Source of the DNA: an uncultured Alphaproteobacteria bacterium
GTDB taxonomy: Bacteria; Pseudomonadota; Alphaproteobacteria; HIMB59; GCA-002718135
DNA length: 46,904 nucleotides
Reading direction: 5' to 3'
Assembly: GCA_902593125.1 (NCBI GenBank)
Contig: CACJGU010000003.1
Span: 1-46,904 of the forward strand
In this document: positions 33,447 through 36,616 of the stretch, in pieces
Numbering within the stretch: position 1 is the stretch's first letter
How the letters are laid out: the number at the start of each line of letters is the position of its first letter
The notes under the pieces: model-generated
What the model was told of the DNA's origin: nothing
The model's database searches: none
Seen by the model: the letters and a program-made list of their open reading frames with translations, nothing else
Position numbers and translations under genes: made by a program

Positions 33447-34604
33447 ATGGAACTTTCAAAAAGAATATTTGATCTAGAAACAGAAACTGCCTTTGCTGTT
33501 CTAGCAAAAGCTAATAAATTGATATCTCAAGGTAGAGATATAATTAATCTAGGTATTGGGCAGCCTGATTTTCCAACACCAATAAACATACAAGAAGCTG
33601 CAATTAGAGCAATAAAGGATGGTAAACATGGATATACACCATCTAATGGAATACCTGAATTACGTGAAGCAGTTGCTGAAAAAATATTTAATGATTACAA
33701 TGCTAATGTTAGTCCAGAAAACATTTTGATTACACCTGGTGGTAAACCAGTAATTTTTATATCAGCCTTAATATTTGGTGGAGAAAGTAAAGAAATTATT
33801 TATCCTGACCCCGGTTTTCCAATCTATAGATCAATGATTAAATTTAGTGGCGCTAAACCTGTTCCACTAAATTTAGAAGAAGAAGACAATTTTGAAATAA
33901 ATTTGGATAAATTAAAAAAAATTATTAATGATAAAACAAGTTTAATAATAATTAATAATCCAAATAATCCAACTGGTTCATTTATGAAAAAAGATAAAAT
34001 TGATGAGCTAGTAAAAATTTTAGAAGAATTTCCACAGACATATATATTAAGTGATGAGATTTATAGTAAGATAATCTTTGATAATTTAATGATGCCTTCT
34101 TTACTAAACTACAAAAAATTATTTGATAGACTTATTGTTCTAGATGGTTGGAGTAAAACCTATTGTATGACTGGTTGGAGATTAGGTTACAGTATTTGGC
34201 CAAGTAAAATAATTGAGCATGCTAACAAACTTTGTGTAAACAATCATTCATGTCCAACTTCTATTTCTCAATATGCCGGACTGGAGGCAATCAAGGGTCC
34301 GCAAATTGAATTAAAAAAAATAGTTTTAGAATTTCAAAAGCGTAAAGAATTTCTTCATCATAAAATCAATAAGTTGGACAAAATATCATGTTTTAATCCT
34401 GGTGGAGCTTTTTATGCCTTTCCAAATATTTCTAAAACTGGTTTAAGTGGAGAGGAGTTTTGTAGTTTAGCTCTCGAAGATAAAGGTGTAGCGTTAGTCC
34501 CTGGAACAAGTTTTGGAAACAAAGCAAATGAATTTGTAAGAATTAGCTTTGCAAATTCTCTAGAAAATATAGATGAAGCTATTAAAAGGATATCAACAAT
34601 ATGA
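33447..34604 (+). CDS. Class I/II pyridoxal-phosphate aminotransferase
   Basis: Fold-type I aminotransferase, 385 residues, starting MELSKRIFDLETETAFAVLAKA. Seen are LGIGQPDFPTP, KHGYTPSNGIPELREAVA, NNPNNPTGS (about 170), SDEIYSKI and the PLP lysine Lys237 in DGWSKTYCMTGWRLGY, and an Arg for the substrate carboxylate near the end (FVRISFANS). It resembles aspartate/aromatic or alanine aminotransferases (AspC/AatA group). The exact substrate cannot be read from sequence. Its stop overlaps the glnB ATG (ATGA), which links it with nitrogen metabolism. Confidence 0.9.
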   Translation: MELSKRIFDLETETAFAVLAKANKLISQGRDIINLGIGQPDFPTPINIQEAAIRAIKDGKHGYTPSNGIPELREAVAEKIFNDYNANVSPENILITPGGKPVIFISALIFGGESKEIIYPDPGFPIYRSMIKFSGAKPVPLNLEEEDNFEINLDKLKKIINDKTSLIIINNPNNPTGSFMKKDKIDELVKILEEFPQTYILSDEIYSKIIFDNLMMPSLLNYKKLFDRLIVLDGWSKTYCMTGWRLGYSIWPSKIIEHANKLCVNNHSCPTSISQYAGLEAIKGPQIELKKIVLEFQKRKEFLHHKINKLDKISCFNPGGAFYAFPNISKTGLSGEEFCSLALEDKGVALVPGTSFGNKANEFVRISFANSLENIDEAIKRISTI

Positions 34605-34942
34605 AAAAGATTGAAGCAATAATAAAGCCATTTAAATTATCTAGTGTGAAAGATTCACTTCATGAGTTAGGTATTTCTGGAATGACTGTAAATGATGTAA
34701 AGGGTTTTGGCAGACAAAGAGGTTCAACAGGTGGAATTGACAATGATGATAGTTTTGATGACGAATTTTTAGCGAAAATGAAATTAGAAGTAATAGTTGA
34801 AGATAAACAAGTTGAAAATGTAATTGAAGCTATAAAAAGTACCGCATATTCTGGGAAAATTGGTGATGGCAAAATTTTTGTATCAAATATTGAGCAAGTT
34901 ATAAGGATTAGGACAGGAGAAAAAGACAGTGAGGCTGTCTAA
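34601..34942 (+). CDS. glnB: Nitrogen regulatory protein P-II, altered T-loop
   Basis: Trimeric P-II signal protein, 113 residues, one more than E. coli GlnB. It keeps MKKIEAIIKPFKL, the Gln39-containing GFGRQRG loop, the B-loop TAYSGKIGDGKIFV (Lys90 region) and the VIRIRTGE C-loop, so ATP and 2-oxoglutarate binding should survive. The T-loop (about 42-58) reads STGGIDNDDSFDDEFLAKM. Tyr46 and Tyr51 of E. coli are Ile and Ser here, and the loop is strongly acidic with no Tyr. GlnD-type uridylylation at position 51 is therefore impossible. It overlaps the aminotransferase gene and precedes glnA by 243 bases. Confidence 0.93.
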   Translation: MKKIEAIIKPFKLSSVKDSLHELGISGMTVNDVKGFGRQRGSTGGIDNDDSFDDEFLAKMKLEVIVEDKQVENVIEAIKSTAYSGKIGDGKIFVSNIEQVIRIRTGEKDSEAV

Positions 34943-34948
34943 TTTTAC

Positions 34949-34985
34949 TTTACTTTTTACAAAATAGCAGTAATTAAGCCATAAT
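34949..34985 (+). promoter_or_regulatory. Candidate glnA promoters
   Basis: Two overlapping candidates are seen. TTTACA (34956-34961) with CATAAT (34980-34985) at 18 bases matches consensus at 5 of 6 in each half, but would start transcription near 34992, inside the first riboswitch. TTTACT (34949-34954) with TAATTA (34971-34976) at 16 bases is weaker but would start just ahead of it. Confidence 0.4.
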
Positions 34986-35034
34986 CGTTCAACTCATAGT
35001 GAGTCGGAAGTAGGTACTTGTACCGAAGGAACGC
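34986..35034 (+). ncRNA. Glutamine riboswitch (glnA RNA), first aptamer
   Basis: Complete glnA-RNA (glutamine-I) aptamer. P1 CGTTC pairs with GAACG. P2 is ACTCA-TAG-TGAGT. The conserved CGGAAGTA joins P2 to P3, which is GGTA-CTTG-TACC, and the conserved GAAGGAACGC closes it. The class binds free L-glutamine. It is followed 17 bases later by a second copy and then by glnA. Confidence 0.93.
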
Positions 35035-35051
35035 ATGCAAAAGTTATAAAT

Positions 35052-35103
35052 CGTTCAATCTAATGTTGATTAGATCGGAAGTAAGCTCCAGCTGAAGGAA
35101 CGC
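35052..35103 (+). ncRNA. Glutamine riboswitch (glnA RNA), second aptamer
   Basis: Second complete aptamer. P1 is CGTTC/GAACG. P2 is ATCTAAT-GTTG-ATTAGAT (7 bp, longer than in the first copy). The core CGGAAGTA is identical, P3 is AGC-TCCA-GCT, and the tail is GAAGGAACGC. The core is identical to copy one while the P2 and P3 sequences differ with pairing kept, which is covariation in favour of a real RNA. The P3 loop contains CTCC, complementary to the glnA Shine-Dalgarno GGAG. Confidence 0.93.
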
Positions 35104-35138
35104 GCATAATGCAGATTTCATAACTAGAGCATGATTTA

Positions 35139-35168
35139 ACCGGGTAAACTGGTGAAGTTGCCCTTTTG
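35139..35168 (+). promoter_or_regulatory. Possible riboswitch expression platform
   Basis: Two hairpins share bases here. ACCGG-GTAAA-CTGGT (35139-35153) and GGGTAA...TTGCCC (35142-35163, with an inner CT/AG and a bulged A) cannot form together. The second is followed by TTTTG and looks like a short intrinsic terminator, ending about 10 bases before the glnA ribosome binding site. Its control by the aptamers is inferred. Confidence 0.4.
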
Positions 35169-35185
35169 TTGAATAGGAGATAGAT

Positions 35186-36616
35186 ATGAAATTGAAAAGC
35201 TCTACACCAAAAGACTTGATGTCTGAAATTAAAAATATGGACATCAAAATGGTTGATTTGAGATTTACTGATATTCCAGGAACAACTCAACACTTTACAA
35301 TTCCAATTAAATTTTTAGATGAAGATATATTTTCAGATGGTCTTGGCTTTGATGGATCATCAGTAAGAGGTTTTCAAGAAATTCAGGACAGTGATATGAT
35401 AGTTTTACCAGATGCACAAACTGCATACATTGATCCATTCTTTTCTGAAAAAACCCTTGCTTTACATTGTAATATTAAAGATCCAGTTACTTTGGTTGAT
35501 TATAGCCGTGATCCAAGAAATATAGCTAAAAAAGCAGAAGCATATTTAAAATCCTCAGGAATTGGTGATACCGCATTTTTTGGCCCTGAAGCAGAGTTCT
35601 TTGTATTCAATAATGTACAGTTTGATTCTGGTTCAAACTTTGCATTTCATGAAGTTGACTCAACCGAAGGAACTTGGAATAGTGGTACAGATGAAAATCC
35701 AAATTTAGGTCACAAACCTCGTCATAAAGAGGGATATTTTCCTCTTCCCCCAGTTGATACACTTCAAGACGTAAGAACTGAAATGGTTATGACTATGCAA
35801 GATATTGGTCTTACAGTCGAAGCTCACCATCATGAAGTAGCTACAGGTGGTCAATGTGAGATAGACTTAGAATTCTCACCATTGCTTAAAATGGCAGATG
35901 ACATGATGAAATATAAATATGTAGTTAAAAATGTTGCAAAGCAACATGGAATGACAGCAACATTTATGCCAAAACCTCTTTTTGAAGATAATGGATCAGG
36001 TATGCACGTTCATCAAAGTGTTTGGAAAGATGGTGATACGCTTATGTACAAAGAAGGTAACTATGCCAACTTAAGTGATTTAGCTCTTAATTATATTGGA
36101 GGAATACTTAAACATGCGCCTGCACTATTAGCTTTTTGTGCTCCTACTACCAATTCTTATAAAAGATTGGTTCCAGGCTTTGAGGCCCCAGTGAACATTG
36201 TTTACTCTCAAAGAAATAGAACAGCTTCTGTAAGAATTCCTGCTTATTCTCAAAGCCCTAAATCAAAAAGAATGGAATTTAGATGCCCCGATCCAAGTGC
36301 AAACCCATACTTAGCATTCTCAGCAATGTTAATGGCAGGATTAGACGGAATTAAAAATAAAATTGATCCCGGTGATCCAACGGATATAAATCTCTACGCT
36401 GCTAGTGATGAGGTTTTATCGAAAATTCAATCCACGCCTGGATCGCTAGCTGAATCTCTTGAAGCTCTTGAAAAAGATCATGCATTTTTATTAGAGGGTG
36501 ATGTATTTACTAAAGATGTAATTGAAACATACATCAGCTATAAAAAAGAGAGTGAGGTTGATCCTATTAATATTAGACCTCATCCACACGAGTTCAAACT
36601 TTACTACGACGTGTAA
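35186..36616 (+). CDS. glnA: Glutamine synthetase, type I
   Basis: Makes glutamine from glutamate, ammonia and ATP, the entry point of ammonium assimilation. The 476-residue protein has the beta-grasp N-terminus ([14 protein letters not shown]), the DGSSVRGF loop, the metal-binding [11 protein letters not shown] and [10 protein letters not shown], the ATP-site [21 protein letters not shown], and [11 protein letters not shown]. Tyr404 in [10 protein letters not shown] corresponds to the adenylylated Tyr397 of E. coli, so GlnE control remains possible. A Shine-Dalgarno AGGAG lies 7 bases before the ATG. It stands alone between the tandem riboswitches and a strong terminator. Confidence 0.98.

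Follow-up and report, generated by a model that had tools for sequence, protein, structure and literature searches.

Glutamine-I riboswitches (glnA RNA, RF01739) are the described RNAs closest to the locus analysed here. Their occurrence in tandem and their placement before glutamine synthetase, P-II and amt genes have already been published (Weinberg 2010, PMC2864571; Sherlock 2022, PMC9481103), with 157 doublets and 4 triplets counted in the later survey. A 2018 review describes the class as restricted to cyanobacteria, and its associations with glutamine synthetase, PII and amt genes as restricted to environmental, uncultured sequences (PMC6316151). Two other tandem systems offer useful comparisons: the tandem glycine riboswitch, which PMC9481103 (Table 1) places in a dual-aptamer, one-platform class, and a tandem from Pelagibacter ubique, in which the linker is reported to block the response of the upstream aptamer (PMC11508383).

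Here we present an analysis of a tandem glutamine-I element located upstream of glnA in a 46,904-nucleotide stretch of DNA (the window) from an uncultured alphaproteobacterium. The locus shares with described glutamine-I RNAs the aptamer sequence, the three helices, the core, the placement at nitrogen genes and the reported tandem arrangement (PMC2864571, PMC9481103), but differs from them in possessing a linker of near-fixed length with complementarity to a conserved strand further downstream, with which it would form a single expression platform; in contrast to the description given in PMC6316151, its host belongs to an alphaproteobacterial genus. As in the tandem glycine riboswitch, two aptamers for the same ligand are joined by a short linker ahead of one platform, although here the coupling is a prediction and the linker itself is proposed to be regulatory. 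Pelagibacter ubique is likewise a streamlined marine alphaproteobacterium, but its tandem combines two aptamer classes with two proposed levels of control (PMC11508383), whereas here there is one class and one proposed platform. The aptamers are thus ordinary members of their class, while the way in which they are joined is probably a new variant; neither a linker helix nor this alphaproteobacterial regulon was described in the open-licence literature searched.

Two glutamine-I aptamers upstream of glnA

In the window, a class I/II aminotransferase gene (33447-34604) lies upstream of a gene for a P-II signalling protein of the glnB/glnK type (34601..34942, forward strand, 113 aa; Pfam PF00543, 114.2 bits), which is followed by aptamer 1, the linker, aptamer 2 and glnA (35186..36616, forward strand, 476 aa; PF00120, PF03951). 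A first-pass annotation had read the intervening region as two complete glutamine riboswitches directly ahead of glnA in a putative streamlined alphaproteobacterium. The Rfam covariance search it called for matched both copies over the entire model (positions 1-53) at gathering thresholds, with RF01739 hits on the forward strand at 34984..35037 (59.2 bits, E 1.2e-10) and 35050..35106 (61.1 bits, E 3.6e-11). A chance match is ruled out, both scores lying far over the 35-bit cut-off, and we regard the element as almost certainly a tandem glutamine riboswitch; that the leader binds glutamine and changes expression is a prediction from sequence. The host is indeed a small-genome alphaproteobacterium, and glnA is genuine by its Gln-synt_C domain. 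The two cores (CGGAAGTA in aptamer 1 and GAAGGAACGC in aptamer 2) are identical as claimed, and P2 and P3 differ in sequence between the copies with pairing kept. Two distances required correction: P1 of aptamer 1 (34986-34990 with 35029-35033) and P1 of aptamer 2 (35052-35056 with 35098-35102) are separated by 18 nt, from 35033 to 35052, rather than by 17 bases, and the true glnA downstream begins (ATG at 35186) not immediately but 83 nt past the end of aptamer 2 P1, the position of the leader being derived from the DNA.

Comparison of 85 tandem units (sample described below) revealed that all five counted P2 pairs and all three P3 pairs of aptamer 1 show two-sided changes, and that every lettered cell of these helices is paired (100%). 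The covariation score of 0.378 (0.158 for shuffled alignments) was reached by none of 500 shuffles; the count of pairs with two-sided changes (8) was itself no higher than in the shuffles. The consensus fold of aptamer 2 contains five P2 pairs with two-sided changes, two of them partly broken (4/85 and 12/85 cells). In both aptamers the core GG and the C after GAACG, the residues of the G23-C60 pair, are invariant across the 85 units. In the bound fold C60, the base after P1, pairs with a core G upon ligand binding (PMC11477058), its position being fixed by the aptamer sequence printed in PMC5393176, and its equivalent in aptamer 1, C35034, opens both the linker and the helix P4 proposed below.

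The terminator scan identified, on both strands, a terminator-like hairpin in the 3'-terminal part of the P-II gene (34924-34940), and given this hairpin glnA may be transcribed apart from P-II. A promoter match in the leader (TTTACA-18-CATAAT, 34956-34985) was set aside, its implied start lying inside aptamer 1 P1; it was the only match, fewer than the mean of 3.1 in shuffled sequences.

A multi-gene glutamine regulon in one alphaproteobacterial genus

The window's own genome (1.26 Mb, 69% complete) contains seven RF01739 matches at four loci. Tandem aptamers precede glnA, an ammonium transporter gene (amt, 438 aa, PF00909) and an operon encoding CP_ATPgrasp_2, Alpha-E and transglutaminase-like proteins (L117:7151-10333; G000:C1:33150-36332), and a single aptamer precedes a second amt (427 aa, PF00909) that is divergent from a glutamine-synthetase paralogue. 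As a sample we collected 50 stretches around genus loci among the matches listed, the genome's own loci, and the 12 of 80 GlnA-search contigs that carry aptamers; by our own sequence pattern, the remaining 68 of the 80 loci lack one. Removal of identical arrays left 91, of which 85 are tandem: 38/38 at GlnA, 31/31 at the first type of Amt, 16/17 at CP-ATP-grasp and 0/5 at the second type of Amt. The lone single array at CP-ATP-grasp (L019) sits at a contig end, where the end of the first aptamer and the linker are still visible. A pair of amt genes separated by about 2 kb, both preceded by a separate tandem, was observed at G235:C1:460733-462894 and, in the same arrangement, in L123, L142, L145, L148, L149, L157 and L161.

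The aptamer family is close to universal in the genus. A first draw of genomes found it in 36 of 61, the window's own included, which amounts to 36 of the 37 genomes of the genus and none of 24 from a sister family of the same order; a full draw of the genus found it in 100 of 102, including all six of at least 90% completeness; and an even draw of the class found it in 6 of 385, two from the genus and four from one other family, all three draws (61, 102 and 385) having been filtered more strictly, at the cost of weak matches. The other alphaproteobacterial family with aptamers has 27 matches in 23 of 32 genomes, none of the 27 side by side on one contig, and 11 of the 15 loci read precede a CP-ATP-grasp-like start (L313 among them by eye), which Pfam confirms at the one locus tested (L292). 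Three loci on separate contigs of one genome (L309, L310 and L311; G526) carry an identical single aptamer and leader with no long ORF starting within 150 nt, perhaps as part of a repeated or mobile element. Among 11 cyanobacterial and 4 other genomes used for comparison, one had the family and none had a tandem; the two matches in that genome are on separate contigs and hence have no tandem linker, and our own sequence pattern missed both loci.

Urease-type genes, recognized by eye, lie a few kb upstream of the operon headed by the CP-ATP-grasp (circularly permuted ATP-grasp) gene. The presence of glutamine aptamers before this gene in two alphaproteobacterial families suggests a nitrogen role and links the operon to nitrogen control, which agrees with a report that domains of this operon co-occur in marine metagenomes with those of urea metabolism (PMC3597751). 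In all 17 CP-ATP-grasp leaders inspected (L117 and 16 related), a short upstream ORF of 16-25 codons from its likely start, often preceded by GAAAGG or AAAGGA, ends between -6 and +8 bases from the main start. Its position may point to translational coupling to the CP-ATP-grasp gene. In 7 of the 17, the sequence at the start of this ORF is CUAUGG, which is complementary to CCAUAG of the downstream strand described next.

Conservation of the linker and of a complementary downstream strand

The inter-aptamer linker CATGCAAAAGTTATAAAT (35034..35051, forward strand), which we propose as the 5' strand of P4, is 18 nt long in 64, 17 nt in 20 and 16 nt in 1 of the 85 tandems. This near-fixed length is maintained before three unrelated gene families, with P2 and P3 varying in length, and the linker sequence is also conserved, in the form CATGC-A(n)-AGTTAT-AAAT. 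The terminator scan found no terminator-like site between the two copies in the window, and an 18-nt linker is too short to accommodate an expression platform for aptamer 1. The two-step response suggested in the first-pass annotation is therefore unlikely to come from two independent switches, and the steeper response suggested there stands as a prediction.

Downstream of aptamer 2 lies a conserved strand ATTTCATAACTAGAGCATGA (35115..35134, forward strand), hereafter the switch strand, whose general form, ATTT-C-ATAACT or ATAGCT-(n)-GCATG, is complementary to the linker and whose CATA part starts 14-21 nt past aptamer 2 P1. In the window the complementarity spans 35115-35133, and P4 would consist of an outer helix, GCATG (35129-35133) with 35034-35038, and an inner helix, ATAACT (35120-35125) with 35042-35047. 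All 84 distinct tandem units possess both the switch-strand motif and a parsed linker; all 11 pairs of P4 are possible in 79 of them and 9 of 11 in the other five, namely four glnA leaders (about 83% GlnA identity) and L156, which have gained an adjoining GAA/TTC stretch. The motif was found in none of the 5 single-aptamer amt leaders, none of the 15 loci of the other aptamer-carrying alphaproteobacterial family, none of the 68 GlnA loci without aptamers and none of the 119 viral stretches.

The internal loop of P4 differs in size from one gene family to another, on both of its strands: it is 3x3 in glnA, 2x2 in amt and 1x2 in 15 of 16 CP-ATP-grasp units. When applied to the 85 units, RNAalifold placed the outer five P4 pairs in the consensus unprompted, and also formed three pairs between the 3' strand of aptamer 2 P1 (GGA) and UCC/UUC in the switch strand. 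Shuffled sequences matched the linker:downstream duplex in 52 of 2700 cases for glnA, 27 of 2500 for amt and 17 of 1500 for CP-ATP-grasp leaders (average z scores near -2.8, -2.9 and -2.8, respectively), in tests that are non-independent since the leaders are related. Covariation does not prove P4, because its outer pairs are nearly invariant and its inner changes are of wobble type or losses: no outer pair shows a two-sided change, four of the five being invariant and one altered one-sidedly in 1 of 85 units, and the inner helix shows wobble-type changes or, in 5 of the 84 distinct units, has lost two pairs. The inner six pairs were counted with our own script, as the aligner had misplaced the linkers of glnA units by one base. 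P4 is thus supported by conservation together with complementarity, and although the units are related and conservation of the two strands could have a different cause, we consider it likely that P4 is a real functional helix.

Predicted pairing at the start region and computed folding

Between the switch strand and the ribosome binding site, sequence and folds place a hairpin, P5 (GGGTAAAC..GTTGCCC, 35142..35163, forward strand), the sequence of which varies between relatives; a probable Shine-Dalgarno sequence of glnA, AGGAG, follows at 35175..35179 (forward strand). The switch-strand segment AUUUCAUA can pair with UAUGAAAU across the glnA start, such that 35181..35193 (forward strand) would form an alternative helix, P6, with 35114-35126 (duplex -9.7 kcal/mol), and before amt the segment AUUAAUUUCCAUA can pair with a stretch from the Shine-Dalgarno sequence to the AUG. 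As a control we took the window, L117 and L119, which together supplied 72 start regions, among them the genome's own glnA, amt and CP-ATP-grasp starts. For the window's glnA, 7 of the 72 (itself included) pair with the switch strand as well or better. The corresponding numbers are 2-7 for seven distinct glnA leaders at 97-100% GlnA identity and 1-2 for seven at 77-78%; in four distinct leaders at 74-83% the start pairing is weak (11, 20, 33 and 33 of 72). Values for 18 amt leaders range from 2 to 35, with 14 of them at 6-18, and those for the main starts of 16 CP-ATP-grasp leaders from 0 to 35, mostly near chance.

In ensemble folding, forcing both aptamers to form lowered the mean number of P4 pairs from 2.3 to 0.8 in 38 glnA leaders, and raised it from 8.8 to 10.6 in 16 amt leaders and from 2.4 to 4.1 in 16 CP-ATP-grasp leaders. 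Mean accessibility of the start site stayed nearly flat (0.44-0.45 for glnA, 0.55-0.60 for amt and 0.41-0.45 for CP-ATP-grasp, where the main start rather than the short upstream ORF was measured). The computed folds thus give no single direction of switching, as the shift in P4 differs between gene families and the start barely changes. Cross-pairing of the identical P1 strands was also tried as a source of cooperativity, and the computed coupling between aptamers was appreciable only in glnA leaders (mean -1.3 kcal/mol, compared with -0.2 for amt and 0.0 for CP-ATP-grasp). Among single-aptamer amt leaders, start accessibility fell with the aptamer forced in all three that were folded (of five); in the other aptamer-carrying family the change at the start site was small and mixed.

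Proposed mechanism and alternative explanations

We propose that the tandem constitutes one two-aptamer glutamine-I riboswitch with a single expression platform that controls glnA translation, with the linker as its regulatory strand, a reading to which we give about even weight. The two-aptamer, one-platform anatomy fits, the platform being deduced from complementarity and conservation. At low glutamine, the linker would pair with the switch strand to form P4, enclosing aptamer 2 and leaving the glnA start open. Glutamine would stabilize P1 of both aptamers, which flank the linker, and aptamer 1 with its ligand would capture the first C of the linker (the C60 position), which is also the outermost base of P4. 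With P4 so weakened, the switch strand would be freed to pair with the Shine-Dalgarno and start region, closing translation. Binding at the two aptamers would be coupled because both border one linker. The same module is present before amt and the CP-ATP-grasp operon. The double use of C35034, together with the pairing of the aptamer 2 GGA strand with the switch strand, hints that glutamine binding and sequestration of the switch strand are mutually exclusive, and hence that the device is OFF with glutamine; we lean towards this direction over ON. A fuller version of the scheme, which we offer tentatively and with more doubt than conviction, holds that the aptamers clamp the linker at both ends while linker and start site compete for the switch strand, that both aptamers must bind to release the linker (a two-glutamine gate), and that the module, copied before glnA, amt genes and the CP-ATP-grasp operon, serves as a main glutamine sensor of the genus.

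The same module could instead act as an ON switch, in which bound P1 helices favour P4 by removing cross-pairing of the aptamer 1 P1 3' strand with the aptamer 2 P1 5' strand, thereby holding the switch strand off the start and raising translation. Type 1 glutamine riboswitches tested in cyanobacteria are activating (PMC6316151), forced aptamers raise mean P4 in amt and CP-ATP-grasp leaders, and the cross-paired hairpin appears in the free-state fold of three of seven glnA leaders folded singly (L037, L041 and L132). On the other hand, the mean folding shift in glnA leaders runs in the opposite direction, and the single-aptamer amt leaders of the genus lose start accessibility when the aptamer is forced (3/3 folded). 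Glutamine is not expected to activate glutamine synthetase or ammonium transport under the usual logic of nitrogen control, to which an ON switch at these genes runs counter, and we judge this alternative rather unlikely.

A transcription attenuator, in which P5 and the TTTT that follows it act as a terminator under control of the tandem, would account for the hairpin and T-run of the window, which recur in some relatives (L046 and L047, for example). The terminator scan, however, gives P5 no score as an intrinsic terminator, and inspection by eye found the T-run weak or absent in L041, L164 and L132, shifts in P5 sequence for which the switch strand offers no evident partner, and a different hairpin without a T-run in those amt leaders that were read (part of the total), all of which makes attenuation improbable. 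Least probable of all is a pair of independent, pseudo-cooperative switches, each with its own platform and together giving a steeper joint response, even though Sherlock 2022 classes glutamine tandems as pseudo-cooperative (PMC9481103). The linkers, 16-18 nt in all 85 tandems and conserved in sequence, are too short to hold a terminator or start site of their own, such that a separate platform for each aptamer was rejected, and the viral tandems have linkers of still shorter length in 116 of 117 pairs.

The glnA and amt associations are now placed in one alphaproteobacterial genus as part of a multi-gene regulon, to which the CP-ATP-grasp, Alpha-E and transglutaminase-like operon is added. 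If the linker truly is the switch, short-linker tandems may each represent one cooperative device rather than two switches.

Related tandems on viral contigs

Tandem glutamine-I aptamers were also observed in 119 stretches of viral contigs (L170-L288). These share with the bacterial units the aptamer class and the presence of two copies, but their linkers measure 6-11 nt in 116 of the 117 pairs measured and 25 nt in one, under a search pattern that allowed 5-35 nt and which shorter or longer linkers would escape; the bacterial linker pattern had no matches in the viral contigs. The viral tandems precede small ORFs, and many carry a compact Shine-Dalgarno hairpin right after aptamer 2 (CATCT..AGATG, CAATCT..AGATTG or CACC..GGTG; for example CATCTTTGTAAAAGGAGATG), whereas the bacterial units carry the switch-strand motif. 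The 25-nt-linker tandem lies on a contig of the viral collection (L222:4394-4834, reverse strand) before a short ORF that, by eye, resembles the N-terminal part of glutamine synthetase.
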